Shown: positions 483 through 33,721, counted from the first letter of the stretch. The stretch: DNA of 35,920 nt from Desulfobacterales bacterium (GCA_020057225.1 JAGVGH010000278.1:1-35920), one strand, 5' to 3'. Program-made: numbers and translations. Notes: a model not told the origin generated them from the sequence alone.

Positions 483-665
483 TCACGACCCCTGGGCGTA
501 ACACCTCCGGGGCACCAGGCACGTGGGAGCAGGATTGCCAAAACCCCGGCCCTGGGGCGGCGGCAGCTTGCATCCCACCGCCAGCACCTCCTCCGCCACA
601 AGCTCAATCGCCCGAAGCCTGGGCGTTGTGTAGGCGCGCTTCTCCCTCTTGTCCTCATCCGTCAT
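483..665 (-). CDS. Candidate RiPP precursor peptide, 60 aa: MTDEDKREKRAYTTPRLRAIELVAEEVLAVGCKLPPPQGRGFGNPAPTCLVPRRCYAQGS
   Basis: Internal ATG at 665 of ORF 483..851. Start overlaps the 3' end of the radical SAM gene (stop at 655-657) by 11 nt. Leader-like N-terminus, then a Cys/Gly/Pro-rich C-terminal half with Cys32, Cys49 and Cys55. Located with PqqD-like and radical SAM/SPASM genes. Confidence 0.72.
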   Translation of the reverse strand: MTDEDKREKRAYTTPRLRAIELVAEEVLAVGCKLPPPQGRGFGNPAPTCLVPRRCYAQGS

Positions 666-1731
666 GGGACACCTCGCTTTCGCCTCCCAAAATGGCCGCG
701 TGCCGCAAATGGGCCATTTGGCAGATATAATCCGACACCGTTTCCGCCGATCCGGTTTCCAGTCCGAAAAAACCCGGGCATGCGTCGCAACACGCGGCTT
801 TATCGCATCGGGCGCAGGGGAAATCCGGCGCAACCGGTTGTTCCCTGACACGCTTCATAAGCGCCCAGCCCTCTTGAAACCTCCCCCCGGCCAGAGGATA
901 AGACGGCTCCCGGACCAAAAGACAGGGCCGGAGCACTCCCCCAGGGTCCACATGAAATTCTGTCAGCCCGGCCCCGCAGTTGTACAGAGCCTCGAACACG
1001 GGCCTGCCGGAGGTTTTCGCGTAGTAGTCGCGCCACAGCTTGAGGCGGCGCGGGTCGGAAAGCTCCTCCGCCACGGCCTCGGCGGGGGAAACCCGGAACG
1101 CGAGAGGCTCTTTGCCTCCGGAAAGCCCGGGCATAATGGCCGCGTCCACCCGGAAATCCACGCCAAGGTCCCGGGCGATATCCCGCATCTGATGGATACC
1201 GCCGGAGTTGAGCGTCATCTGCACGGTCTTAAGGCTCACACGGACCCCCCGGGAGCGCAGCGCGCGGACGCCTTCCAGACAGGCGGAAAACGACCCCGGC
1301 GCGCCTGTCACCCGTGCGCTGGTTTCCGGACCCGCCCCGTACAGGCTCACTTCCACCACGTGGGGAGGATATACCGAGAACGCGTCGAGCGCCTCCGGCG
1401 TAATGACTGTCCCGTTGGTGAAAACCGTGGTGACAATCCCCTGTTTCGCGGCCCGGGTGTAAATTTTTGGAAAATCGGGCCGAAGCAAAGGCTCGCCGCC
1501 TGTAAGCAAGAGGTAGAGGCAGCCTTCTGTTGCCAGGGTGTCCACAAGGGAAAGCCAAAAAGCCTCGGGAAGCTCCTCCTGGTCCGCCGCGTCCCTGGCG
1601 TAGCAGTGGGCGCACCGGAGGTTGCAGCGCCTTGTTAACTCGATGGTCCCGGAAAGGGGCACCCGGAGCGCGGCCATTTTGTGGTTGAGGGAATCGTAGA
1701 ACGCCTGCCTGGTGTTCCGGGAGTCCATCAT
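655..1731 (-). CDS. Radical SAM/SPASM domain peptide maturase-like protein
   Basis: CNLRCAHCY (CxxxCxxC) near the N-terminus. C-terminal Cys-rich SPASM-like region (CGAGLTEFHVDPGGVLRPC...CARCDKAACCDACPG...C). Overlaps the upstream PqqD-like gene by 4 nt. Confidence 0.93.
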   Translation of the reverse strand: MMDSRNTRQAFYDSLNHKMAALRVPLSGTIELTRRCNLRCAHCYARDAADQEELPEAFWLSLVDTLATEGCLYLLLTGGEPLLRPDFPKIYTRAAKQGIVTTVFTNGTVITPEALDAFSVYPPHVVEVSLYGAGPETSARVTGAPGSFSACLEGVRALRSRGVRVSLKTVQMTLNSGGIHQMRDIARDLGVDFRVDAAIMPGLSGGKEPLAFRVSPAEAVAEELSDPRRLKLWRDYYAKTSGRPVFEALYNCGAGLTEFHVDPGGVLRPCLLVREPSYPLAGGRFQEGWALMKRVREQPVAPDFPCARCDKAACCDACPGFFGLETGSAETVSDYICQMAHLRHAAILGGESEVSHDG

Positions 1732-2015
1732 CCCTTTCTTTCCACAAGCCCCGCCGCGAGAAGCTCCCCGGCAAAGGCGAGCACCTCTTCCCCGGCGTTT
1801 TCGGGCGCGTTGTCAAAGGCTTCCGCGACCATGCCCGCCACGTCCCCCAGGGTGCGGACGCCGTCCAGGCGCTCCCAGACAAAGGCGCCCACCGGGTCCA
1901 GGGAGTAGATGCGGCGCATGTCCGCGAGCCTGCCCTTGACAGGGACAAGCAGGGTCTCCCCGGCGATTGCCCGGGTCACCACATCCGGCGCCTTTGTGAG
2001 CAACGCTTCCCGCAA
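1728..2015 (-). CDS. PqqD family protein (RiPP recognition element-like)
   Basis: 95 aa; 'RRIYSLDPVGAFVWERLDGVRTLGDVAGMVAEAFDN...VLAFAGELLAAGLVERKG' has the typical PqqD winged-helix pattern. Adjacent to radical SAM gene. Confidence 0.9.
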   Translation of the reverse strand: MREALLTKAPDVVTRAIAGETLLVPVKGRLADMRRIYSLDPVGAFVWERLDGVRTLGDVAGMVAEAFDNAPENAGEEVLAFAGELLAAGLVERKG

Positions 2016-2033
2016 AGAAAACCTCCCGCCCTG

Positions 2034-5000
2034 TCAGTAGGGCACACCCGGCGGCCGCAGGTCTTTGGGGAATCGCAAGGCCGGGTCGCCGAAAAGATTG
2101 TAAATGGACGGCATAAGGGTATCCCCCGTGCGTCCCCTGTAATTTACAAGAGCCTCCAAAAGCGCGTCGCCCAGCCGCGCCCGGCCCAGAACAAAGACCG
2201 ATTTGACAAGCTCCTCCGAGAGGGTCCGCGCCCGCACATGGAGGGAAAGTCCCGCAGTGGACCACATGGCGATGGCGCCTCCCTGGGGCGTGACGGTCAA
2301 GTCTTCGGAGAGGAAGTCCACGCCCGGAATTTCAAAGCGCCCCACGTTGCAGGTGTAGGCCCCCACCACAGGAAGCCCCGCCGCGGGCGTAAGCCCGGGC
2401 ACGTCGGAGTTGACCAAAAAGCCCTCGTCGGCAAACTGGCCGAACCCGCCATGCCCCATATAGTTGACGAAAACAGCACCCTCCTGCCACGCGCCGATAA
2501 GCGCTTCCCGGGCGTTTTCAACAGTCCGGTTGGAAAGGTAGATTTTGTTCTTCTGGTACTTGGACGGGAAGAGCGCCCCCGCGGCGTCGGAGTCTCCGGG
2601 GAAATTCGAGCCGGCCTGGGGCTGGTCCGCGGCAAGGACGACCCGCTGCTGCCAGGGCGCGGAGTCCCGCGCCTCATAGCTGATGATTTTATCCGCCAGG
2701 GCGAGAAGCTCCGCCGCGGAGGACACGGGAAGCCGCCCCACCGCGATTTCAGGAATCCTGTCATCCCCCTCCACATCCCCGTACAGGCTGTCCGAGGCGA
2801 ACAGGCCCTCGGGCGTGCCCGCCATGATGGCGGGGACGTGGTTGCCGCCGCAGCCCAAAAGCTCTTTGTAATCATAAGAGCCGTCCCCGGCAAGGAGAAC
2901 ATAGAGGGGCGGCGTTGTCCATGTGGAGCGCGCGTGGGCGAGAAACGCCCGGATGGCGGCGGGGTCGTAATTTCCGTGGTTGAACACGTCCATCACGTCC
3001 TCGACCGTGACCACCATGGAAGAGAGGCCCTGGCCCGCGCGGTGGGCGGCCAGGGGTGCCGCGGCGTCCGCAAACGCCCTGGGCGCGATGACCAGCCATT
3101 GGGCGGCGTTGGCCGCGCTTAAAAGGTCCGGAGGGTCTCCCGCGGCGCTCATCCCGGCGGGCGCAAAGGGGTTTGCCATGTCCGCGGCCAGATAGCGCCT
3201 TGCATAGACACCGGGTTCAAAGCTCAAGCGCCATTTGCCCGCCTGGGAATCCACAGTGGTCCCTCCCAGGCGGACCGGCAGGCCCGGGGTGGAAAGGTCA
3301 AAGACGGCAAGGCCGGCGCTGTCAAACCCTCCCACGGTTACCACCGGGTCCTCCAGTCCGTCCATCACAAGCTGGCCGTTTTCCGCCAGGGTTTGGCGGG
3401 GCCATGTCAGGTCGAAGGAGTCCACGGCCACATAGCTGTACTCGGCGCCGGTGTCCAGAAGCGCGGTGACGGTTACAATGTTGCCTGTTTCCGCCAGCAG
3501 GGAGGCGTCAAAATCAAAGGACGCGGTCCGGGAGGCCATGCCGTCCAAAGTGGCGTCTCCCGCCACCGTGCCGTTCACGCGCACCCGGACATGATGGTCC
3601 TCCGCCGCTGTGGCGGAAATCCCTTTGAGCGCCACTTCGATGGACGCGGCGCCCGGGCCGGACGCAAGGCCCGGCGCGTCCACCGTGGCCGTGAGGGTGT
3701 CGCTTTCAGGGACGCCCGCCAAAAGCGTGACCCAGGCCCAGAAATCGGCGTCCGGGTCATCATGGTAATCGGTCAGAGCCTCGTGCTCCTCCTCGAAGTG
3801 CCGGGTGTAAGGGAACACAGAAGGCGCGGACGCGGGGGCCGGGCCGTTTTGCACGGGCGCGGTTCGAAGTTCCGCCGCGGCCTGGAGAATCCACAGGGCG
3901 TCCAGGGTGTCCGCCGCCCCGTCTCCTGTGGCGTCTCCGGCCCAGGCCGGGCGGCTTCCCTCTTGCGGTCCCATTCCCGCGGCGAGCCTTAAAACCGCCA
4001 CCGCGTCGCCGACTCCGGGGGTGCCCGAGCCGTCCACGTCTCCTGTCATTTCCCTGGGCAACAGGCGGCCCTGGCCCGGAGCGAGCCAGTAGATGTTTTC
4101 GGTCGTGTAATTCGATTCCGGGTTTTCCCCGATAAAGAAGAGGGAGGCGTAGTCTTCAGTCGGGAACCAGGGCACGTCCGCGCCCTTGTTGGTGAGCGCG
4201 ATCCCGTTTGCCGCCAGAAGGCTTCTAAACGCCTCCGTTGTCAGTCCCAGAAGGGGCGCGGCATCCGCCGCAAGAATCCGGTGGAGTCCGGGCCGGGCGA
4301 CCTGGATTCGGATGCGCGTTCCCGGCTCCGTGTCCAGGGTCTGCATTCCCTTTTCCGAGGCGGCCGGGGCGGCCTCTTCCGGCGCCGGGGAATCGGCGCG
4401 GGCCGGATGGGGCGCGCTGGCAAACGCCTCCGCGCTGTCCGGAACCCCGTCGGGTCTTTCCCCGGGTGTCACCGTGAAAGGACCATAGACCGGGCGCCTG
4501 CCCCCGGCCTCCAGTTCCACCAGCCTATACACGGACTCTCCCTGCAGGGGCGCGTCCGGGTCAACCAGCCTGTACCATCCGCCCTGGGGCGCGGAGTGGA
4601 AGCCGGGAACAGGCCGCGCGTTGACGCGGGTCCAGGTTTGCGCCCCGGTGTCAAAGCGTTCGAGGTAGAACCCCAGGGTCCGGTTCTCGCTCACGGTCTC
4701 CCAACAGACCACAAGGCGGCCCGCCTCGGCGAATGCTCCAAAGGAGGCGATGACAGCCCGGGTGGCCACCAGGGCGGCCACGCTGTCCAGGTCCACCACC
4801 ACGTCGCCAAGGGGGTCGGTATAGGAAAGGCTGATGTTTTCCGTGTTGTTTGGAGTCACATACAGGCGCCCGTCCCCGGGCACGCTGGTCTCGCTGTCCA
4901 GGGGCAGCTCGAACAGGTAGCGCAGGGAATTGTTGGCGAAAATCCCCGTGTCCGGTCCTGTCTCGTAGAGGGTCACGGTCTCGGAGTCGCCGTCCGGCGA

Positions 5001-8000
5001 GGTGACCGTGACAGTGATGCTCTCGATAAGGTCGGGGTTCTCGTTGTGGTCCGGGTCAAACACCTTGAGGTGGATGGTGTCGTGTTCCTCGTAGATGCTG
5101 AACTCTCCGCCGGGAGTGACAGGGTTGCCCGAGGCGTCGGTGAAGTTCGCCGTGGGGATGCTCCGGACCACGTGGGTGACGGAATCGGTGGCGGGGTCCA
5201 CGAACTCGCCGCTCACCGCATAGACGGTGTTGGTGACAGATCCTGTTTCGGGAGGGTTGTTGACTGTGATCTGATAGGTCACGGTCATGCTCCTGCCCGG
5301 CAGTAGTGAATACGCGTCCGAGGCGGACACGAGGTCCAGCGGCGCGTCCCCGGGCTGGGTTTTGGTGGTGAAGATATTTGTAAAATCAATCCCCTGCACC
5401 CAGGCGGCGAAATTTTCGCCGGTGCGCACGCGCTGGAGCCGGACGGAGGTGTTGGCCGCATACCGCGCGGAGAAATCCGGAGTGGGGTAGTTGTTCCCGT
5501 CGTTAGCTCCGCTGTTGTAGGAAAGGGCCATACTCTGGCTGGGGGAAAGGGCCGTGTCAACGGTCACGTCATAGCTTGTGAGGTCCGAGTCCCCGTTGGC
5601 TTTGAAGCGGTAGTCCACAGCCAGGCCCGAATGGGTGAGGGCGTAAACATCGAAGTCCTTGGCCAGGGCGTAATGCAGGCCAACGGCCACAAGGGTTTCG
5701 TTGGTGTTTTGGGCGACGCCGTTGCCAAGGGTGATGACCGCGCCTTCGAGCTGCCTGCCCGTGCCCTGGGTGTCGGTGAATCCCGTGCCCCAGACCCAGG
5801 TGTTGTCACGGACCACGGAGGAGATGGCGGACGTGTTGTACCCGGTTGTCGCGTCCACGCCCGCGCCGCCCGCCGAGCCTGTCACGTTTCTTCGCTGCAC
5901 GGTCCACTCGCTGCCCCATTCCAAAACCATCACCGTGCTGGTGGAGGCGGCCCGGTTGAGGGTGGCGCTCCGGGACCAGTTGATAGTGCCGGTCCCGGAA
6001 GGCCAGTAGCGCAGATGGCAGCAGGACATGTTGTTTTGCGATGTGTCCGCGCTGTTGATTCCCGCGCCGTTGGCGCCGGCCATGAGCAGAACCTGGTTCA
6101 GGCTGGTCCAGCCTATGGCCGAGGTGTCCGTGCCGCTGGTGACGTTCAAGCCGTGGGAGGTCCGCTGCACGTCCAAAAGCCGGAATCCCTTGGTGCCGGT
6201 GGCGGCGCTGTCCGCGCACTCCACCACTGTCACCACTCCGGTCCAGTTTTGGTTGGACCCGTTTCGTTGCAGGCGGACAACACGCGGTCCGGAGCTTACG
6301 TTGAGGTCGCCCGTGCCAAAGGGATCCTGGATGAGCGAGGCATAGGTCACGTCCGGACCTTCATTCCCGCTCCGGTTGGGCGTGCCCTGGATGATGACGA
6401 AATAGTTGGGCGAAAGGTCCTGGTTCAGCGTGAGGTCGTAGGTGGTTCCCGTGAAGGTTGCCACGGGGATGTAGTATTCCGTCACCCGGAACGCCTGGAC
6501 GGGAGCCGTGACGCTGGTGCTGTTCGCAACGTGGGTGGTGCCGGGCGCCAGGGGGTCTTTCACCACAACCCCGGTGGCCTCGGCAAGACCGGTGTTGGCC
6601 ACTGTCACCGTGTAGGTCACTGTATCCCCGGGATAGAGCGGATCCACTCCGTCCGATGTTTTATCCACTGTCAGCCGCGTCACCTGGGCTGTATCCGTCG
6701 AGGAGTTGTTGCCGGTGTTGGTTTCCCCGGTTCCCGTGTTCACCGTGGCCGTGTTGGAGACACTGGGGAAGGCCGCGTCCAGAACGGTGACCGTCACTGT
6801 GATGGGCGGCAGACTTTCCCCGGGTCCCAGGGGACTGCCCGCCGAGACCGGATAGGTCCAGGTCACGGTGGGCACGCCTGTTTCGTTGACCGTCCATCCC
6901 GGGGCCGAACCGGACACATAGGAAACGCCCGCCGGGAAGGTGTCTGTCACGGTGACCTGGGAGGTCTGGGTCGCCGTGCCGCTGTTGGAAACGGATATCG
7001 CATACTGGGCGGTCTGGTTTACTGAAAACGCGCCTGTGTGGGCTTTGAAAACCGCCAGGTCCACTCCCGGCGCGGGCAGCACCTCCAGGGAGGCGATGCC
7101 CGTGTGGGTCACCTGGTTTTCCGTGCCCTCCTTGGCCCGCACCGTGGCTGTCCAGAAGCCCACAGGACCGTTGGACGGGATGTTTAAGGCGTACTCGTAG
7201 GTCTTGGTGGCCGCGCCCGAATCGTTGACCATGGGCATGGCGGCGCCCGAAACCACGGTGTCGCCGTTGGCGTCCACCACGTCCAGGGTGGCGGATGTGA
7301 TGTCCGCGGAGCCAAAGGGGTCCCCCGCAACAGCCCGCACATACACGGTGTTGGCCACGTTGGCCTGGGCCACCAGGGTTCCGCCCGCGTAGGCCGCCGT
7401 GTAAAAGCCCACCGAGTCCACATTGATGACAGTGTTGAACTGCATCTCTGTGAAGGACCGCAGGCCCGAAACCGTGTCCAGGGGATACACCCGTATCTGG
7501 CGCGTGCCGGTTCCGCTCTCGAGAAGAGCCACATTGACGTTGAGCCAGGAGCCTGCGGGAATGGTGATATCCGTGGCCGGCGTGATGGCCAGGTTGGCCG
7601 TGAAAAGCTGCACCACGGTGGTCAGCGCGCCCGTGAAGTTCCACGTGTAGGTGCCGATGGTTTGGGTAACCGCGCCCGCGGCCGAGAGTGTCACCCGGAC
7701 GTTTCGGTTTGTGGTGGTGTCCCCGGCGCGGGTCATGAGGAGATAAACGGGAATGACTCCCTGGTCCCGCTCGATCACGATGGCCCTTTGGGCCACGGGT
7801 GTAAGCGGCCAGTTGGTCGAGGCGTTCTCGTTGATTTGCACGTAGTTTTGAGGAGCCGCCGGGGGTGTCCGAACAAGGGTGGGACTCTGGCTGAGATACA
7901 GGGGCTTGGTGCCCGCGCCGGGAAGCTGGGAGTCCTGCACATAGACCGTGGGGGCTGTTGCCGTGCCGCCAGGGCCTGCGGGGTTGGTGATGGCCGCGCT

Positions 8001-11000
8001 GTTGTTGATGGCGGTTCCCGCGGCCAGCGGGGTGTCAACGCGCAGCGAAAACACAACGTCCGTTTGCCCGTAGGCCGGAACCGAAATCCCCGTGACAGAC
8101 AGCCTTCCCGTGCCGTTGGCCCCTCCCGCGAGCATCTGACACGTTGCGCCGGGGGGACACGAAACCGCCTGGGGAGTGTTGGTGTTGGCGGGCATGTCAT
8201 CGCTTAAGGTCACTCCCGAGACCGCCACGCCCCCGCTTTCGACAACCGTCACCGTGTACATGAGGGTGTCGCCGGGGTTCACATCCCCGCCGTTCACGTC
8301 CCCCACGTCCTTGACCGGGGCGGAGAGGTCCGGGCCGATGACCACGGTGGGGTCGCTGAACGAGTTGTTGCCTGTGTCCGGGTCCGCGTAGGCCACAGGC
8401 GCGGTGACCGTGACCGAGTTGGTCACCGAGGAGACCGCGGCCGCCCCAGGCCGCACCACGAGTTCGATAATAGGAAGCCCTGTCCCTGGCCGGAATCCGC
8501 CCACGCAGGGATTGGTAAAGGTGATGGCGGGAAGCGCCGCCGTGTTGACAGTCCAGCCTGTGGCCGATGCCGAGACAAACGTCATTCCCGCGGGCAGGAC
8601 ATCGGTCACGGTTATCGGATGGGTCACGAGGTTTTCCGTGATGGTGCTGGGCCCCGCGTTATAGACCTCGATCCAGTAGAGCGCGTCCACGCCGGACTGG
8701 AAGTTACCGATGTGGCTTTTGATGGTGTAAATGTCCGCGGTGGGCTGGGAATAGACCCTTATGTCCTCGTCGGTCTCCGGATCCTCTCCCGGGGGTGTGC
8801 CCGCGTCCTGGGCGATGATGCCGTTGTCGTCAATGGCCCCGGTCTCTGTGCTGGCGGCGCTGGCCGTGTTATCGTAGGTTCCCGCCGCGACTCCGACGGT
8901 GCTGACGGTGAAGGCTATGGAGAGGGCGCCGCCGGGACTGATGGTCCATGTGCCCCAGGTGAGGCTGGACGCGCCCGCGGCGGGGGTGAGGAATCCGGTG
9001 CGCGACGCGCCGGTTTCCACAATGGTGTCTGTGGAGGCAAGCGGCATTCCGCCGACAAGGGTGTCCGAGACCGTGACCCCGGTGAGGGGAAGGGTGCCGG
9101 TGTTTCGTACCACCACGCGATAAACAGCGGTGGGATAGGCCGGGTCCGAGACCGCCACCAGGGCGTCCTTGTCAATGGTCATCCAGTGCCGGACGGTGAT
9201 GTCCTCGTCGGTTTCCGGGTCCAGGCCCGGCGGCGTGTCCAGGTCCTGGGCCACGGCGCCCGAGTCGTCAACAGGCCCGGTTTCAGCGCTCTGGGCAAGG
9301 GCGCCGTTGTCGTAGGTTCCCTCGGCCACCGTGGCCGCCACGGCCACGTCAAAGGTGATGGCGACGCTGCCCCCGGACTGGATGGTCCATGTTCCCCAAA
9401 GCGGCGTGCCGGTGCCCGCCGTTGGATTGGTTGTGCTGGTGCGCGTGGCGCTTTCGGCGGTGATGGAGACGGTGCCGGCGTAGGTGAATCCCGGCTGGAG
9501 GTAGTCCTGGGCGGTCACGCCGGTGACCTGGGTGGCGCTGGAGTTCCGGAGCGTGATGGTGTAGCGCGCGTTCCCGGGCGCGAGAACCTCGGGCGTGCCG
9601 GTGTCCTTGTCTATGGTGAGGGCTGTGACGGTTATGTCCTCGTCGTTTTCCGGGTCCTCGTTGCCGGGAGTGCCCAGATCCTGGGCCGCGGTGCCGATAT
9701 CGTTGATGTCGCCCGTCTGGGTGCTGTATGCCTCCAGAGTGTTGTCATACACCCCGGGCGCGACAGCCGCCCCCGCGTTGACCCGGAAAACGATGGTGAC
9801 CCCGCCCCCGGCCTGAAGGTCCCATCCCCCCCAGTAAGGCGTGGTGTCTCCGGCGGAGGGATTGTCCGTCCAGGTGCGGGTCCCGTTGGTGAGCGTGATG
9901 GAAAGATTGGAGTTGAAGGTGAAGCCTGTGGGCAGGGTGTCTGAAAAGTCCACATCGGTAACAGGCGTATCGCTAATGTTCCTGGCTGTTATGGTGTAGT
10001 CCGCGGTGCCTCCGGACTGGGCGTAGGGAGTCGCCGCGTCCTTGTCCACCACCAGGGAGGTCACCTGCATAATGGCGTTGTCCCAGGGGGAGAACACCTG
10101 GCTTCCCTCAAGCCGCTCGCCGCGCGCCCGGGCCGTGTTGACCGCGATCATGCCCTGGGTCACGGTGGCGTCGGTGACGATGCCGAACGTGAGGTTGAGG
10201 GTTTCCCCAGTGCGCATGTTGAGCCCGCCCAGGGTGGCGTTGGACCAGGTAATGTTCTGCCCGGCTATGGAGGGGTTGGCGGCGGTGCCCAGAATGAGGG
10301 AGTTGTCCGGCAACTGGATGACGGTGCTGTCCGCCACATAGCTCCATCCGGCGGGCAAAAGGTCGGACACGGAGATGTTGAGCACGGGGAATTCGTAGGT
10401 GGTGATGGTAAGCGACACGGTGGAGACCTTGCCCGCCACGGGCGCCACCACTGACGGGTCAACGGTCTTGTCAATGGCCAGGGTGAGGTCCAGCCAGTCC
10501 CTGTCCATGGGCAAAATGGTGGAGCCGAGGTCGAGATAGGGCACGCTTGTCCCGGCCCTGTCCGGGTCCTGGCCCCAGGTCACGACGATGGGGCTGGTCG
10601 AGAAAATATGCATGCCCGTGTTGTTGTTGTCCGGGTCAAAAATCTTTTGGGCCTCCAGGCGGTCCAGAGTGTAGGTCTGGTCAATCACGCCATCGGTGGG
10701 GGAGAAATCCACGAACACCACGGTCTCGTCCTGGGTCACGGTGACATAGGCCGGGGAGCCGTTGTTGGCCGGTGGAACCTGGGAGGTGCCGGGCGCCCAG
10801 GTGAGATGGTAGTCGTCCGTGAGCACATTGGCGGGAACCAGGCTGTAGCCCCACTCGTAGGTGATGGATTCGGCGTCCGAGGAGCCAATACCCCAGAAGA
10901 TGTCGTCGGAGTAGAGATATACGCCGGAATTTACGGGGACATACCTGCCCGCCCCGTCGGAGTAAGAGAGTGTTGTCCGGGCACCCACTAAAAACTGGCC

Positions 11001-12005
11001 GGAACCGCTGGTGTCCTCGTATTCAATGATGATGGGATAGGGGTTGGGGTTGTAGATGTAGAGATCGGTGTCGCCGTTGTTGGCTCCCGGCACGGCGTTG
11101 TAATACTCGTTGTCCCAAAGGCTGTCCGGAAACGCGGTAAAGCCGCGCATCTCGTAGAGGTTTCGTGTGATGCTGCCCACGATGAACTGCACCTGCACAG
11201 GCTGGTCCGCGTGGATGTGGGTTCCCGCGTTGATGCGGTCAAGCCGCGTGGCTTGGCCGGTGTTGAGTGTCGCGGTCACCTCCACCCCGGCAAGGGTCGG
11301 GTCGTCTATGGTGACAAGGTTGTTGTCCGTGGTGGACTGGACGATTACATAGGCGTGCTCGAAATCGGTGTAGAAGGGAGAATTCCAGGCCAGGTCTTCT
11401 CCGATGGGAATGGTGTAGTCGGTGAGGAAGGGCTTGACGGGCAACAGGGTGAAACACAGGGAGATGACGGTGCCCTCGGATTCGGTCCAGGCCGAGCGGG
11501 AGACCGCCACGGTTGCCCCGGCCACATAGATGCGGTCTCCGCCGTCGTAGTACACGGCGGCGCCGCGCGGGTTAACGGGGATGCTGCCGCCCACATACTC
11601 TTTCACCTCTCCGGCCTGGAGAATGTCCTTTCTGTCGGCTGTGGCGTCCGGGTTGTCCGGGTCAAAGTCGTAGCCGTCCTCCCAGTGGTCATAATAGACA
11701 GTGGTCTCGTCGCCGGTGGCGGTGATGGAGATGACGCAGTGCATGCCCAGGGCGATGTTGATGTTGCCGCCCGCGTCGTCGGAGATGTCGTCAATGATTG
11801 CCCAAAGCTGTTCTTCGGGCCCTGGGATGAAGTATTCCGTGTATCCGGCGACGGAACCCGCCTGGGCCGGGCCGGGAAAAAGGAGCGCCACAAGAAGTAA
11901 CACGGCGGGCGGGACAAGGGCGGCCAGAAGACCGGGACGGTGAAGATTCCCGGTGTCTCCGGCGGTGTCCCGGGCCGGCCTGGATATGCTCCGGTGAAAA
12001 CGCAT
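2034..12005 (-). CDS. Giant secreted multidomain protein: surface-protein N-terminus, DUF11-like repeats, dockerin-like repeats, C-terminal C25 (gingipain-like) cysteine peptidase
   Basis: Single ORF 2034..12035. ATG at 12005 has a GGAGG Shine-Dalgarno and is preferred. Signal-peptide-like LLAALVPPAVLLLVALLFPGPAQA. Repeats such as 'LTIDKDTGTPEVLAPGNARYTITLRN'. Dockerin-like 'GDVDGSGTPGVGDAVAVLRLAAG...GDATGDGAADTLDALWILQAAAEL'. C25-like catalytic segments NYMGHGG and AYTCNVGRFE. Confidence 0.92.
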   Translation of the reverse strand: MRFHRSISRPARDTAGDTGNLHRPGLLAALVPPAVLLLVALLFPGPAQAGSVAGYTEYFIPGPEEQLWAIIDDISDDAGGNINIALGMHCVISITATGDETTVYYDHWEDGYDFDPDNPDATADRKDILQAGEVKEYVGGSIPVNPRGAAVYYDGGDRIYVAGATVAVSRSAWTESEGTVISLCFTLLPVKPFLTDYTIPIGEDLAWNSPFYTDFEHAYVIVQSTTDNNLVTIDDPTLAGVEVTATLNTGQATRLDRINAGTHIHADQPVQVQFIVGSITRNLYEMRGFTAFPDSLWDNEYYNAVPGANNGDTDLYIYNPNPYPIIIEYEDTSGSGQFLVGARTTLSYSDGAGRYVPVNSGVYLYSDDIFWGIGSSDAESITYEWGYSLVPANVLTDDYHLTWAPGTSQVPPANNGSPAYVTVTQDETVVFVDFSPTDGVIDQTYTLDRLEAQKIFDPDNNNTGMHIFSTSPIVVTWGQDPDRAGTSVPYLDLGSTILPMDRDWLDLTLAIDKTVDPSVVAPVAGKVSTVSLTITTYEFPVLNISVSDLLPAGWSYVADSTVIQLPDNSLILGTAANPSIAGQNITWSNATLGGLNMRTGETLNLTFGIVTDATVTQGMIAVNTARARGERLEGSQVFSPWDNAIMQVTSLVVDKDAATPYAQSGGTADYTITARNISDTPVTDVDFSDTLPTGFTFNSNLSITLTNGTRTWTDNPSAGDTTPYWGGWDLQAGGGVTIVFRVNAGAAVAPGVYDNTLEAYSTQTGDINDIGTAAQDLGTPGNEDPENDEDITVTALTIDKDTGTPEVLAPGNARYTITLRNSSATQVTGVTAQDYLQPGFTYAGTVSITAESATRTSTTNPTAGTGTPLWGTWTIQSGGSVAITFDVAVAATVAEGTYDNGALAQSAETGPVDDSGAVAQDLDTPPGLDPETDEDITVRHWMTIDKDALVAVSDPAYPTAVYRVVVRNTGTLPLTGVTVSDTLVGGMPLASTDTIVETGASRTGFLTPAAGASSLTWGTWTISPGGALSIAFTVSTVGVAAGTYDNTASAASTETGAIDDNGIIAQDAGTPPGEDPETDEDIRVYSQPTADIYTIKSHIGNFQSGVDALYWIEVYNAGPSTITENLVTHPITVTDVLPAGMTFVSASATGWTVNTAALPAITFTNPCVGGFRPGTGLPIIELVVRPGAAAVSSVTNSVTVTAPVAYADPDTGNNSFSDPTVVIGPDLSAPVKDVGDVNGGDVNPGDTLMYTVTVVESGGVAVSGVTLSDDMPANTNTPQAVSCPPGATCQMLAGGANGTGRLSVTGISVPAYGQTDVVFSLRVDTPLAAGTAINNSAAITNPAGPGGTATAPTVYVQDSQLPGAGTKPLYLSQSPTLVRTPPAAPQNYVQINENASTNWPLTPVAQRAIVIERDQGVIPVYLLMTRAGDTTTNRNVRVTLSAAGAVTQTIGTYTWNFTGALTTVVQLFTANLAITPATDITIPAGSWLNVNVALLESGTGTRQIRVYPLDTVSGLRSFTEMQFNTVINVDSVGFYTAAYAGGTLVAQANVANTVYVRAVAGDPFGSADITSATLDVVDANGDTVVSGAAMPMVNDSGAATKTYEYALNIPSNGPVGFWTATVRAKEGTENQVTHTGIASLEVLPAPGVDLAVFKAHTGAFSVNQTAQYAISVSNSGTATQTSQVTVTDTFPAGVSYVSGSAPGWTVNETGVPTVTWTYPVSAGSPLGPGESLPPITVTVTVLDAAFPSVSNTATVNTGTGETNTGNNSSTDTAQVTRLTVDKTSDGVDPLYPGDTVTYTVTVANTGLAEATGVVVKDPLAPGTTHVANSTSVTAPVQAFRVTEYYIPVATFTGTTYDLTLNQDLSPNYFVIIQGTPNRSGNEGPDVTYASLIQDPFGTGDLNVSSGPRVVRLQRNGSNQNWTGVVTVVECADSAATGTKGFRLLDVQRTSHGLNVTSGTDTSAIGWTSLNQVLLMAGANGAGINSADTSQNNMSCCHLRYWPSGTGTINWSRSATLNRAASTSTVMVLEWGSEWTVQRRNVTGSAGGAGVDATTGYNTSAISSVVRDNTWVWGTGFTDTQGTGRQLEGAVITLGNGVAQNTNETLVAVGLHYALAKDFDVYALTHSGLAVDYRFKANGDSDLTSYDVTVDTALSPSQSMALSYNSGANDGNNYPTPDFSARYAANTSVRLQRVRTGENFAAWVQGIDFTNIFTTKTQPGDAPLDLVSASDAYSLLPGRSMTVTYQITVNNPPETGSVTNTVYAVSGEFVDPATDSVTHVVRSIPTANFTDASGNPVTPGGEFSIYEEHDTIHLKVFDPDHNENPDLIESITVTVTSPDGDSETVTLYETGPDTGIFANNSLRYLFELPLDSETSVPGDGRLYVTPNNTENISLSYTDPLGDVVVDLDSVAALVATRAVIASFGAFAEAGRLVVCWETVSENRTLGFYLERFDTGAQTWTRVNARPVPGFHSAPQGGWYRLVDPDAPLQGESVYRLVELEAGGRRPVYGPFTVTPGERPDGVPDSAEAFASAPHPARADSPAPEEAAPAASEKGMQTLDTEPGTRIRIQVARPGLHRILAADAAPLLGLTTEAFRSLLAANGIALTNKGADVPWFPTEDYASLFFIGENPESNYTTENIYWLAPGQGRLLPREMTGDVDGSGTPGVGDAVAVLRLAAGMGPQEGSRPAWAGDATGDGAADTLDALWILQAAAELRTAPVQNGPAPASAPSVFPYTRHFEEEHEALTDYHDDPDADFWAWVTLLAGVPESDTLTATVDAPGLASGPGAASIEVALKGISATAAEDHHVRVRVNGTVAGDATLDGMASRTASFDFDASLLAETGNIVTVTALLDTGAEYSYVAVDSFDLTWPRQTLAENGQLVMDGLEDPVVTVGGFDSAGLAVFDLSTPGLPVRLGGTTVDSQAGKWRLSFEPGVYARRYLAADMANPFAPAGMSAAGDPPDLLSAANAAQWLVIAPRAFADAAAPLAAHRAGQGLSSMVVTVEDVMDVFNHGNYDPAAIRAFLAHARSTWTTPPLYVLLAGDGSYDYKELLGCGGNHVPAIMAGTPEGLFASDSLYGDVEGDDRIPEIAVGRLPVSSAAELLALADKIISYEARDSAPWQQRVVLAADQPQAGSNFPGDSDAAGALFPSKYQKNKIYLSNRTVENAREALIGAWQEGAVFVNYMGHGGFGQFADEGFLVNSDVPGLTPAAGLPVVGAYTCNVGRFEIPGVDFLSEDLTVTPQGGAIAMWSTAGLSLHVRARTLSEELVKSVFVLGRARLGDALLEALVNYRGRTGDTLMPSIYNLFGDPALRFPKDLRPPGVPY

Positions 12006-12353: not shown

Positions 12354-14363
12354 ATGTACAAGTACCTCTTCTCCCCTGTCACCATCAACAAAACTGTGGT
12401 CCGCAACCGCACCTGCTACCCTTCCCTTGGCCTTCTCTACTCATACGACGGCAAACTCAACGACCGCTACTGGAATTACTTCACCGAGCGCGCCAAAGGA
12501 GGAGTGGGCATCCTCACTGTCGGACCCGTGGGAGTGGACTACATCGGCTCCGGATCCGTCGTCCTCACCATCGCCACCGACGAGGCCATCGGCCCCATGT
12601 CCAAACTCACCCGCGCTGTCAAAGACGCGGGCGCCTCCCCCTTTATCCAGCTTTTCCACGCGGGGCGCTACTCCCACCCCATCCTCATCGGCGGCGAAAC
12701 TCCCCTCGGTCCTTCCCCTGTCTATTCCCGGTATTCCAAATGCACCCCCAGGGAAATGACCAAAGAAGACATCGCCCAAATCCGCAAAGCCTTTGTTGAC
12801 GCCGCGATCCGCGCCCAAAAAGCCGGATTCGACGGCATCGAAATCATCGCCTCCGCAGGCTATCTCATCACCCAGTTCCTCTCCCCCCTCACCAACCAGC
12901 GCTGCGACGAGTACGGCGGATGTTTCGAGAACCGCACCCGTTTCCCCAAAGAGATACTCGAGGAGTGCCGCGAAAAGCTCGGCCCGGACCAGGCCCTCAC
13001 CATCCGCATGGCGGGCAGCGACTTTGTGCCGGGAAGCAACACGGATACCGAGACCCCGTTGTTCGCCCAGGTCTATGAGAAGGCCGGGGTGGACGCCATC
13101 AGCGTGACAGGCGGCTGGCACGAGTCCCGGGTGCCCCAGCTTCCCATGGAACTGCCCCGGGCGGCCTGGGCCTTTCTCGCGCGGAATGTTAAAGAGGTGG
13201 TCCGGGTTCCGGTCATGGCCTCGAACCGCATCGCCACTCCGGACGCCGCGGAAAAAATCCTCCAGGACGGATTCGCGGACATGGTGTGCCTGGGCCGGGT
13301 GCTCATCGCGGACCCCGAGTGGCCGGTAAAGGCCAAAGAAGGCAGGGCGGACGAGATACGCCCCTGCGTGGCCTGCTCCCAGGGCTGCACAGACCAGATT
13401 TTCACGGGCCAGCCTGTCTATTGCATCGGCAATCCCCGGGCCGGTTTTGAAGGGGAGCGCGCGGTCACGCCCGCGAAAAAACCCAAAAACGTCCTGGTCA
13501 CCGGCGCGGGCGCCGCCGGGCTCGAAGCCGCCTGCACCGCGGCCCAGGCAGGGCACACGGTCTCCTTGTATGAAAAGGGGGAAGACATCGGCGGCCAGCT
13601 TTGGATGGCGGGCGCGCCTCCCCACAAGCAGGAAATCTGGGAGTTTGTCCGGTACTACCGGGCCATGCTCCGGCGCCTGCCCATTGCCCTTCACCTCAAC
13701 ACCCTGGCCACCCCGGAGCTGATACAAGAGAAAAAGCCCGATTACATCATCGTGGCCGAGGGCGCGGATCCGCTTATACCGCCCATCGAGGGAAAAGACA
13801 GTCCGGGGGTGTGGAACGCATGGCAGGTTCTTGGGGAAAACCCCAATCTCGGCAAAGAGGTGGCCATTGTGGGCGGCGGAGCCGTGGGGCTGGAGACGGC
13901 GCTTTTTGTGGCCGCGAAAGGCACGCTCACGCCGGAGATTGTGCATTTCCTTCTGGCCTACGACGCCCTGGACGTGGAGCGGGTGAAAGAGCACATGTTC
14001 CGGGGCGCCTGCCGGGTCACGGTGTTCGAGATGCTCGACAAGGCGGGCAAGGACGTGGGCCGCTCCACCAAGTGGGTATTGATGGACAATCTGAGGCGGC
14101 ACAAGGTTTCCATTCTTACGGGCGCCAAGGTCTTGTCCATCAGGGACGGCGTGGTGCGGTATGAGAAGGAAGGGGCGGCCGCCGAGCGGAAATTTGACTC
14201 GGTGGTTTTGTCGGCGGGGTCGAAGAGCGTGAAAACCATGTCCGAGGCGGTGGCGGGCCTGGGGATACCCTTTGCCGTGGCGGGGGACTGCACGCGGCCC
14301 GGAAAGATCAGCGACGCGGTGCATGGCGGGTTTTTGGCGGCCTTGGCGATACCGGGGGAGTAG
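12354..14363 (+). CDS. FAD/FMN-dependent oxidoreductase, Old Yellow Enzyme / 2,4-dienoyl-CoA reductase-like family
   Basis: N-terminal OYE barrel (LFSPVTINKTVVRNRTCYPSLG...), Cys cluster CVACSQGCTDQIFTGQPVYCIGNP, then a Rossmann FAD/NAD domain (VLVTGAGAAGLEAACTAAQAGH). Good SD (ctggaggaagct) before ATG 12354. Confidence 0.9.
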   Translation: MYKYLFSPVTINKTVVRNRTCYPSLGLLYSYDGKLNDRYWNYFTERAKGGVGILTVGPVGVDYIGSGSVVLTIATDEAIGPMSKLTRAVKDAGASPFIQLFHAGRYSHPILIGGETPLGPSPVYSRYSKCTPREMTKEDIAQIRKAFVDAAIRAQKAGFDGIEIIASAGYLITQFLSPLTNQRCDEYGGCFENRTRFPKEILEECREKLGPDQALTIRMAGSDFVPGSNTDTETPLFAQVYEKAGVDAISVTGGWHESRVPQLPMELPRAAWAFLARNVKEVVRVPVMASNRIATPDAAEKILQDGFADMVCLGRVLIADPEWPVKAKEGRADEIRPCVACSQGCTDQIFTGQPVYCIGNPRAGFEGERAVTPAKKPKNVLVTGAGAAGLEAACTAAQAGHTVSLYEKGEDIGGQLWMAGAPPHKQEIWEFVRYYRAMLRRLPIALHLNTLATPELIQEKKPDYIIVAEGADPLIPPIEGKDSPGVWNAWQVLGENPNLGKEVAIVGGGAVGLETALFVAAKGTLTPEIVHFLLAYDALDVERVKEHMFRGACRVTVFEMLDKAGKDVGRSTKWVLMDNLRRHKVSILTGAKVLSIRDGVVRYEKEGAAAERKFDSVVLSAGSKSVKTMSEAVAGLGIPFAVAGDCTRPGKISDAVHGGFLAALAIPGE

Positions 14364-14422: not shown

Positions 14423-14614
14423 AGCGGGTCGGCTCTCTCGCCGCAAGATAAAATTTGCCGCGCGATTTTTCTTGCCTGTTTTAAAAGGTTGTGGTAGTTG
14501 AAGACCATGTTTTTCTTCGCGAGTACGCCATGGGCAGTTATGCTGTACCCGAAGAAAGGGCCTGGATATTACCAGCCAAGCAAAAGTTCGTAGGTGCCAT
14601 ACAGGAGCGGGATC

Positions 14615-15640
14615 ATGAGCAAGAGAATCGTCATGTTCAATCACAAAGGAGGTGTTAGCAAAACAACATCTGTCTATAATATCGGATGGATGCTCTCGAA
14701 AGACAATAATGTCCTCATTGTTGATGCAGATCCTCAATGTAATTTATCAAGCTTAATGCTTGGAGAAAATTTCGAAAAATACTACTATGATGAAAACACA
14801 AGAGAGCATAATATTAAAGATGGTGTCAAATCCGCGTTCGAGGGAAAGCCAATTCCATTAAAACCAGTTGATTGCTTTTCACATGAGCGCTCAAAGAGAT
14901 TATTTCTTTTAGCCGGACACGCCAATTTATCAGAATATGACGCATCGCTTACTTTTGCGCAAACATCTAATAATGCTATACAAACGCTTCAAAATTTACC
15001 GGGGGCTTTTTCAAAACTCATCGAATTAACAGAAGCAAAATATAAAATTGATTACACGATAATAGATCTCAACCCGAGCCTAAGCGCGATCAACCAAAAT
15101 TTATTTTTATCTTCCAATTTTTTTATAGTACCAACAAACCCAGACCCATTTTCTCTCATGGCGCTTAATACACTGTCTGAAGTGCTTCCGCGCTGGATGA
15201 AGTGGAAAAAATCTGCAATTCAAATATTCTCAGAATCTGTTTATCCTATTCCTGATTGCACACCAAAATTTATTGGGACCCTTATTCAAAGATTTAACAT
15301 TAGAAACAAACAACCGGCAAAACCATATCGTGAAAATATTGAAGAAATCCAGAATTATACAAAAAGCATGTTATATGAAAAAATAAAGAAAGAGGGAATG
15401 ACCATTGAAAATTATCCATGCGCCTTTAGCAATAGCGGATATTGCATTGCGCATATACCTAATTTTCAAAGTCTTCTTCAGGATGCTTACCGGTCTGGCG
15501 TTCCTGTCTTTTGCTTAAAAGATGATGAAATCAAGCAAACCGGTGTGATATCAGAGAATTTGATTGTTAAACGCGACGAATTTTTTAAGCTTTTTTCAAC
15601 AATTGCTGAAACTATAGAAAGAATGATTGACAATGAATAA
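14615..15640 (+). CDS. ParA/MinD-like P-loop ATPase
   Basis: Deviant Walker A FNHKGGVSKTTSVYNIGWML, VLIVDADPQCNLSSL, IDYTIIDLNPSLSAINQNLFLSSNFFIVPTNPDPFS. SD 'caggagcgggatc' precedes ATG 14615 (MSKRIVMFNHKGG). Confidence 0.9.
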   Translation: MSKRIVMFNHKGGVSKTTSVYNIGWMLSKDNNVLIVDADPQCNLSSLMLGENFEKYYYDENTREHNIKDGVKSAFEGKPIPLKPVDCFSHERSKRLFLLAGHANLSEYDASLTFAQTSNNAIQTLQNLPGAFSKLIELTEAKYKIDYTIIDLNPSLSAINQNLFLSSNFFIVPTNPDPFSLMALNTLSEVLPRWMKWKKSAIQIFSESVYPIPDCTPKFIGTLIQRFNIRNKQPAKPYRENIEEIQNYTKSMLYEKIKKEGMTIENYPCAFSNSGYCIAHIPNFQSLLQDAYRSGVPVFCLKDDEIKQTGVISENLIVKRDEFFKLFSTIAETIERMIDNE

Positions 15641-16268
15641 TGCGCTAAACTTATTTAAAAATAATATTAACTCGGCCAAAGAAATTACTGGCCTCTACGA
15701 TTATTTGCATAATACACTTCATGCAAATATCTATACTGGCGATGATTTATTAAGGGCACAGATCGTCTATGCTGTCAGCGCGTTTGATAAGCTAATGCAC
15801 GATATAATAAGGGTCGGAATGATAGAAATTTTCCATAATTTTAGGGCTGTGACCCCAAAATACTCGCAAGAAACGTTTTCAATTGAAACTTTTAGCGCTA
15901 TATTTGAAACATCTGATATTTATGAACAACAAAACAACTTTGAGAAAGCTATTATCTTCAAGTTTCGAGCCGTTTCCTATCAAAAATCCACAAAAATAGC
16001 AGATGGGCTAAGTTATATATGGAATGAAAGTCATAAATGGCAAAAAATAGCAGCACGCATGAATATTCCAGAAGCAGAAATCAAAGAATCTTTAGATCTT
16101 ATATTTAATCAAAGAAATCGAATTGTGCATGAGGCAGACCACAATCCATCCACGCTTAATAAATATACTATTGATAAAAATATAACAGAGCAATCAGTGC
16201 AGTTGCTTGAAAATTGTGGCGAAGCAATCGTAGCGCTTGTTGATGACGCGGGCAACTACCTTATATGA
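15633..16268 (+). CDS. HEPN-like domain protein, putative ribonuclease partner of the ParA-like ATPase
   Basis: ATG at 15633 overlaps the ATPase stop (15638-15640) by 8 nt. All-helical sequence with 'YAVSAFDKLMHDIIR' and C-terminal 'NQRNRIVHEAD', matching the HEPN Rx4-6H motif. The 15627 start in the ORF track is a TTG. Confidence 0.7.
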   Translation: MNNALNLFKNNINSAKEITGLYDYLHNTLHANIYTGDDLLRAQIVYAVSAFDKLMHDIIRVGMIEIFHNFRAVTPKYSQETFSIETFSAIFETSDIYEQQNNFEKAIIFKFRAVSYQKSTKIADGLSYIWNESHKWQKIAARMNIPEAEIKESLDLIFNQRNRIVHEADHNPSTLNKYTIDKNITEQSVQLLENCGEAIVALVDDAGNYLI

Positions 16269-33647: not shown

Positions 33648-33721
33648 TCGGGGCGGAGGGATTTGAACCCACGGCTTCCTGCTCCCAAAGCAGGCGCGCT
33701 ACCAGGCTGCGCCACGCCCCG
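33648..33721 (-). tRNA. tRNA-Pro (anticodon UGG)
   Basis: Minus strand CGGGGCGTGGCGCAGCCTGGTAGCGCGCCTGCTTTGGGAGCAGGAAGCCGTGGGTTCAAATCCCTCCGCCCCGA: 7-bp acceptor stem, anticodon arm CCTGC-TTTGGGA-GCAGG, T-arm GGGTTCAAATCC. CCA not encoded. Confidence 0.96.

Follow-up and report, generated by a model that had tools for sequence, protein, structure and literature searches.

A radical SAM/SPASM RiPP maturation cassette paired with the C25 peptidase domain of a giant secreted protein in a Desulfobacterales bacterium and its relatives

The window considered here is the whole of a contig (C278) of 35,920 bp from a 3.5 Mb genome bin assigned to a Desulfobacterales bacterium (GCA_020057225.1). It carries four minus-strand genes in tight order, which encode a giant secreted protein, a PqqD-like protein, a radical SAM/SPASM enzyme and a short peptide (Table 1). 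The giant gene and the PqqD-like gene are separated by 18 nt (2016-2033), the latter overlaps the radical SAM gene by 4 nt, and the radical SAM gene in turn overlaps the peptide gene by 11 nt. This arrangement, given in the original prediction, has been confirmed to the base from the open reading frames and their coordinates. The TTG start of the PqqD-like gene is preceded by GGGAGG.

Table 1. Genes and features of the cassette, with positions counted from the first nucleotide of the window
Feature	Position	Strand	Basis or remark
RiPP precursor peptide, 60 aa	483..665	(-)	YxxPxL leader, EVLAVGCK junction, 3 conserved Cys, C-terminal Gly-Ser
Gly-Ser at the precursor's C-terminus, predicted site of the kinase	486..491	(-)	near-invariant in relatives
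EVLAVGC, putative leader/core junction	570..590	(-)	distinguishes C25-linked precursors
YTTPRL, the YxxPxL RRE-binding motif of the leader	615..632	(-)	sequence; conserved Y12/P15
Radical SAM/SPASM maturase, 358 aa	655..1731	(-)	PF04055 E 2e-22, alignment A1, tree
SPASM cysteines of the maturase	about 721-978	(-)	
CxxxCxxC of the maturase	about 1603-1626	(-)	
PqqD-like stand-alone RRE, 95 aa, TTG start	1728..2015	(-)	PF05402 E 5.8e-15
Giant secreted protein, 3323 aa from ATG	2034..12005	(-)	signal peptide (apparent), DUF11, PorU-like region, C25
Peptidase_C25 catalytic domain, extreme C-terminus of the giant	2073..3095	(-)	
C25 catalytic Cys	about 2349-2351	(-)	
C25 catalytic His	about 2451-2453	(-)	
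Dockerin-like segment of the giant	3885..4043	(-)	below Pfam cut-off

An imperfect 36-nt direct repeat (89%, spacing 47 nt) is located at 420-502, with one copy overlapping the peptide gene at its 3′ end and the other just downstream of that gene; it may stem from a small duplication or from the assembly. Elsewhere in the window, overlapping plus-strand genes at 14594-16268 encode a ParA/MinD-like AAA_31 ATPase and a RiboL-PSP-HEPN protein, possibly forming a HEPN-based two-gene module, for which PADLOC gave no convincing match, and a tRNA gene lies at 33648-33721 on the minus strand.

The domain assignments of the two central genes are confirmed by Pfam, PF05402 scoring 55.8 bits against a cut-off of 23.4 and PF04055 reaching the E-value listed in Table 1. 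In the radical SAM enzyme, C36, C40 and C43 are invariant in alignment A1, as are C252, C270, C306, C309, C315, C318 and C337, the seven conserved cysteines of the SPASM region, where the last spacing is Cx2C, the standard one being Cx3C. With the motif and SPASM cysteines, an RRE partner and an adjacent conserved precursor all present, the locus is, as judged from these sequence features, a radical SAM/SPASM RiPP system. It is not a PQQ, mycofactocin or GeoRSP maturase locus, the respective equivalog cut-offs being missed (73.9/381, 91.6/265, and 68.7/400). A PADLOC match to viperin (pVip, E 1e-15) reflects generic radical SAM similarity rather than a defence enzyme, since the SPASM region and the PqqD-like and peptide neighbours fit RiPPs.

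The best NCBIfam matches are ScmD for the PqqD-like protein and ScmE for the radical SAM enzyme, and among annotated systems SynChlorMet (SCM; TIGR04248-04250, ScmD, ScmE, ScmC and others) is the closest to the locus. Both share a small Cys-containing peptide, a leader with an aromatic-xxP motif, a PqqD-like protein and a radical SAM/SPASM enzyme, and the HprK-like proteins of the two may correspond as well. However, SynChlorMet has two radical SAM enzymes (ScmE and ScmF), whereas the window and the C25-type loci have a single one of the A1 type, and the C25 giant and the missing MsbA-like exporter are features of the cassette described here. Membership in SynChlorMet was rejected on the single radical SAM enzyme and on cut-offs failed widely (ScmD 42.8/100, ScmE 91.4/400); the protein from locus L043 compared with ScmC scored 28.8/125 bits. 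A literature search, in which coverage of subscription papers was incomplete, found no publication naming SynChlorMet and none coupling C25 peptidases with RiPPs or radical SAM enzymes.

The 60-aa peptide occurs once in its own genome, and a full-length alignment of ten relatives retains M1, Y12, P15, L22, C32, C55 and S60, with C49 and G59 kept nearly always. Such conservation of the open reading frame, which had been proposed as a check, indicates that the peptide is a real gene product. Common to the C25-clade precursors are the YxxPxL and EVLAxGCK motifs, three Cys and a Gly-Ser terminus, the latter being found in 26 of 28 of them and in 14 of 15 precursors of a sister clade with EEAVL leaders. 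With regard to sactipeptides and ranthipeptides, which are defined by Cys thioether crosslinks, what the precursors show is three conserved Cys in the core region. YxxPxL is a motif conserved in lasso peptide leaders (PMC10368454). Leader type follows the presence of C25: among loci with EVLAxGCK-type leaders, C25 lies within the retrieved stretch in 20/23, and in the remaining three (L160, L169, L191) a same-type C25 protein is encoded elsewhere in the genome, whereas C25 is found at 0/14 loci with EEAVL-type leaders. This association is in part shared ancestry.

The sister class with EEAVL leaders (L053-L057, L059, L060, L153, L155-L157) has a kinase and an S26 gene without C25 and is hosted by Omnitrophota, Cloacimonadota, Aminicenantes, Aerophobota and others. 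At six clostridial loci (L102, L112, L116, L117, L122, L125), a distant A1-type radical SAM enzyme is encoded, in most cases with an HprK-like and a PqqD-like gene, together with YxKPxI peptides of 80-95 aa that are Ser-terminated and mostly multi-Cys; these may be a further RiPP class.

The C25 assignment of the giant protein is unambiguous (PF01364, 262.1 bits against a gathering score of 23, E 1.2e-77), and eight stretches of DUF11 were found in it. Thus far, Pfam bears out the domain content anticipated for this protein; the dockerin that had also been proposed falls outside the conserved pattern and is sub-threshold, reaching 18.2 bits (E 0.003) against the Dockerin_1 cut-off of 22.9, and this only in a scan restricted to the segment, so that a dockerin-bearing cellulosomal protein was not accepted. 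Five cohesin domains over the cut-off are encoded elsewhere in the same genome (contigs C32, C246 and C293). The His/Cys dyad is kept in 53/53 C25 domains and in 25/25 of the cassette/terminal type; hence, the giant's domain is a member of peptidase family C25 with an intact dyad, and proteolytic activity is predicted for it. Most cassette-type proteins end 0-8 residues past the C25 domain, while those of Verrucomicrobiota extend about 140 residues beyond it. The repeat region is exchangeable between loci (SdrD_B replaces DUF11 in L043) and C25 stays constant, which marks the C25 domain as the part linked to the cassette and makes proteolysis or transpeptidation on, or controlled by, the peptide the most likely shared function.

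In a phylogenetic tree, the cassette C25 domains (23 linked and four same-type unlinked) form one clade with an SH-aLRT of 99, set apart from the 21 further C25 domains that were taken from the class for comparison, several of which share genomes with linked ones. An AlphaFold2 model of the domain (mean pLDDT 85.8, pTM 0.68) matches the gingipains RgpB and Kgp as well as PorU, the type IX sortase, with 4ief and 1cvr as the best structures (E about 1e-19). Gingipains R and K share with the giant the C25 fold and, in most cassette domains, an acidic residue at the position of RgpB Asp163, but they show about 20% identity, another domain organisation and no such cassette context. Asp or Glu aligns with Asp163, which contacts the P1 Arg in RgpB, in 23/25 domains and is absent from those of L043 and L039, a weak pairwise match underlying this alignment. 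On this residue, a preference of C25 for a basic P1 is likely, and GCK of the precursor would supply the basic residue. Cleavage strictly at GCK was not adopted as a rule because the peptides of L042, L043 and Chloroflexota lack a basic residue after the junction Cys.

To follow the pairing in other genomes, 59 related genomes were searched, and homologues at 41-47% identity were found in nine genomes, the one under study being counted among the nine. In these neighbourhoods, PqqD adjoins the radical SAM gene, and mostly the peptide follows the radical SAM gene and a C25 giant precedes PqqD. While a single-sequence scan of genome contigs gave nothing, an alignment-based scan worked; a profile scan of GTDB contigs yielded 80 further loci in many phyla, and a class-wide scan yielded 30. 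Profiles for C25, PqqD, HprK-like and S26-like proteins, their thresholds resting on few seeds (4-9 sequences), were run on all loci, duplicates being removed manually. The order C25-PqqD-radical SAM-peptide recurs in Thermodesulfobacteriota, Planctomycetota, Verrucomicrobiota, Kiritimatiellota and Aminicenantota, usually followed by genes for an HprK-like kinase and an S26-like peptidase. The four-gene operon exists as originally described, but it is part of the system only, and the co-occurrence of radical SAM/PqqD homologues with C25 giants, whose absence would have counted as a refutation, extends over at least five phyla.

In the radical SAM tree, a clade of 30 (SH-aLRT 100) has C25 adjacent in 26 cases and elsewhere in the genome in three, one being unlabelled, and the C25 label requires at least four changes over the tree. 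Apart from this main clade stand the Anaerolineales/Chloroflexota cassettes (L063, L068, L074, L076), where C25 comes after the kinase and not before PqqD, and where the C-terminal tails are longer. A third arrangement (radical SAM, S26, C25 giant, PqqD) was observed in one genome, G038. Across 390 genomes of the class, C25 is present in 28/35 radical SAM-positive and 55/355 radical SAM-negative genomes (Fisher p 5e-15, uncorrected for kinship). Chance adjacency is ruled out, the order being kept in dozens of genomes while C25 is found in only 83/390 genomes of the class, mostly in 1-2 copies each. The distances among the radical SAM enzymes are correlated with those among the C25 domains (Mantel r 0.70), as expected if the pair travels together. 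Computation yielded the gene order, the conservation, the co-occurrence, the intact catalytic residues and a dedicated C25 subfamily, and the functional tie between the cassette and the C25 giant is supported by the recurrence and co-occurrence. The locus is best explained as a cassette for RiPP maturation that belongs to a distinct subclass dependent on C25.

In the genome under study, homologues of the kinase and S26 genes are present as single copies on two other contigs (C223, with the kinase gene at 13012-13878, and C38), well inside them, which argues that they were relocated rather than cut off by a contig end. HprK-like kinases of the relatives bear the motif H..GxxGxGKS..D[DE] (alignment A3), the second Asp being Glu in some, while lasso precursor kinases have H, GxxGxGKS and a DD motif, and classical phosphorylated lasso peptides have a C-terminal Ser (PMC10368454). 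By analogy with paeninodin-type lasso peptides, this motif and the terminal Ser of the precursors suggest that the cassette kinase may phosphorylate that Ser. The site cannot be universal, since the four precursors from Chloroflexota lack a terminal Ser despite an HprK-like gene being present. Phosphorylated lasso peptides (paeninodin type; BsfA/K/B1) share with the cassette the PqqD-like RRE, the YxxPxL leader and the HprK-like motif (PMC10368454) but differ in that the cassette has a radical SAM/SPASM enzyme, and neither a lasso cyclase nor a B2 protease is among its recurrent neighbours.

Every chemical step, the direction in which C25 and the peptide act and the export route are what we infer from these data. 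With the YxxPxL leader held by the PqqD-like RRE, the radical SAM/SPASM enzyme would act on the peptide thus presented and alter its core, probably at or between the three conserved Cys. The HprK-like kinase, usually encoded in the operon and here on another contig, would then phosphorylate the C-terminal Ser. On export of the giant by Sec, the C25 domain would come to lie outside the cytoplasm and cleave at a specific site, one probably preceded by a basic residue, and so remove the leader or otherwise activate the peptide at the cell surface. Proteolytic finishing of the modified peptide by C25 outside the cytoplasm ranks first among the readings considered, and we hold it tentatively, at somewhat under an even chance. 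Against this reading speak the S26-like peptidase kept by cassettes that lack C25, the peptides and C25 domains in which the basic or the acidic residue is missing, the location of the kinase and S26 genes outside the window operon, and the failure to find an exporter for the peptide.

Ranked second, and unlikely, is the possibility that C25 acts as a PorU-like transpeptidase that joins the modified peptide to a surface protein or polysaccharide or uses the peptide as an anchor, so that the RiPP would be a covalent surface decoration or anchor and not a free product. PorU shares with the giant a PorU-like region, the C25 catalytic domain and the His/Cys dyad; it is the nearest PDB relative by sequence (6za2, E 8e-14, vs 2e-5 for gingipain R), and PorU models are the best NCBIfam matches, although structural E-values put the gingipains slightly ahead. 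The near-invariant terminal Gly-Ser, the polysaccharide export and chain-length genes of some C25 loci (Wzc-like in 8/19, Wza-like in 6/19) and the failure to find any peptide exporter in C25 loci also speak for a surface linkage. The original remark that no dedicated ABC exporter is visible holds for the whole type, an MsbA-like exporter being found in 0/19 C25 loci vs 13/21 SCM-like and 3/11 EEAVL loci. Unlike PorU, however, the C25 domain here forms the terminal part of a giant protein with repeats and the T9SS C-terminal domain is absent, most of the proteins ending where C25 ends; PorU membership was rejected accordingly (NF033707, 203.6/420 bits). The T9SS component SprA was found in 0 of 59 related genomes, a search in which the control was silent too. 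The more specific proposal that a PorU-like C25 installs the radical SAM-modified, C-terminally phosphorylated peptide covalently on a surface protein or polysaccharide, without type IX secretion, appears quite improbable.

The third reading, which is doubtful as well, assigns leader removal everywhere to the S26-like Ser-His peptidase and regards the C25 giant as a surface adhesin or protease that is co-regulated with the peptide (when biofilm or exopolysaccharide is formed, for instance) but does not act on it. The S26-like protein, in which the archaeal/SipW-type Ser and His are conserved, is a candidate rival leader peptidase: its gene belongs to most types of cassette, whether C25 is there or not (where it is not, in 12/15 EEAVL and 19/20 SCM-like cassettes), so that leader removal may not need C25, and some C25 loci adjoin polysaccharide genes. 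Mere co-regulation sits poorly, however, with a C25 domain that remains constant while the repeats vary, that forms a dedicated clade, that occurs with the cassette in three separate arrangements and whose presence is tracked by leader type (20/23 adjacent vs 0/14). Fourth and least probable is that the modified peptide regulates C25 as an inhibitor, activator or cofactor, with C25 as the effector degrading external protein: peptide and C25 are paired one-to-one, mostly by adjacent genes, and the conserved basic residue could fill the S1 pocket, but the sister clade with EEAVL leaders has the same peptide architecture (leader, three Cys, Gly-Ser) despite lacking C25.

The pairing of C25 with the cassette is too regular for chance and points to an undescribed route by which RiPPs are finished or deployed. 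RiPP biology would gain a new enzyme class with this C25 peptidase, which has a caspase fold and is fused to surface proteins of kilo-residue length, and if the PorU-like installation were true, a RiPP would link or decorate the cell surface in several phyla. The cassette occurs widely in lineages from sediment and groundwater, few of whose members have been cultured, and it offers a testable set of about 28 precursors, a defined RRE, a single radical SAM enzyme, and a kinase and a protease for which, respectively, a target site (the C-terminal Ser) and a catalytic dyad are predicted. Comparison of the C25-linked subclass with its C25-free sister isolates the role of the peptidase.
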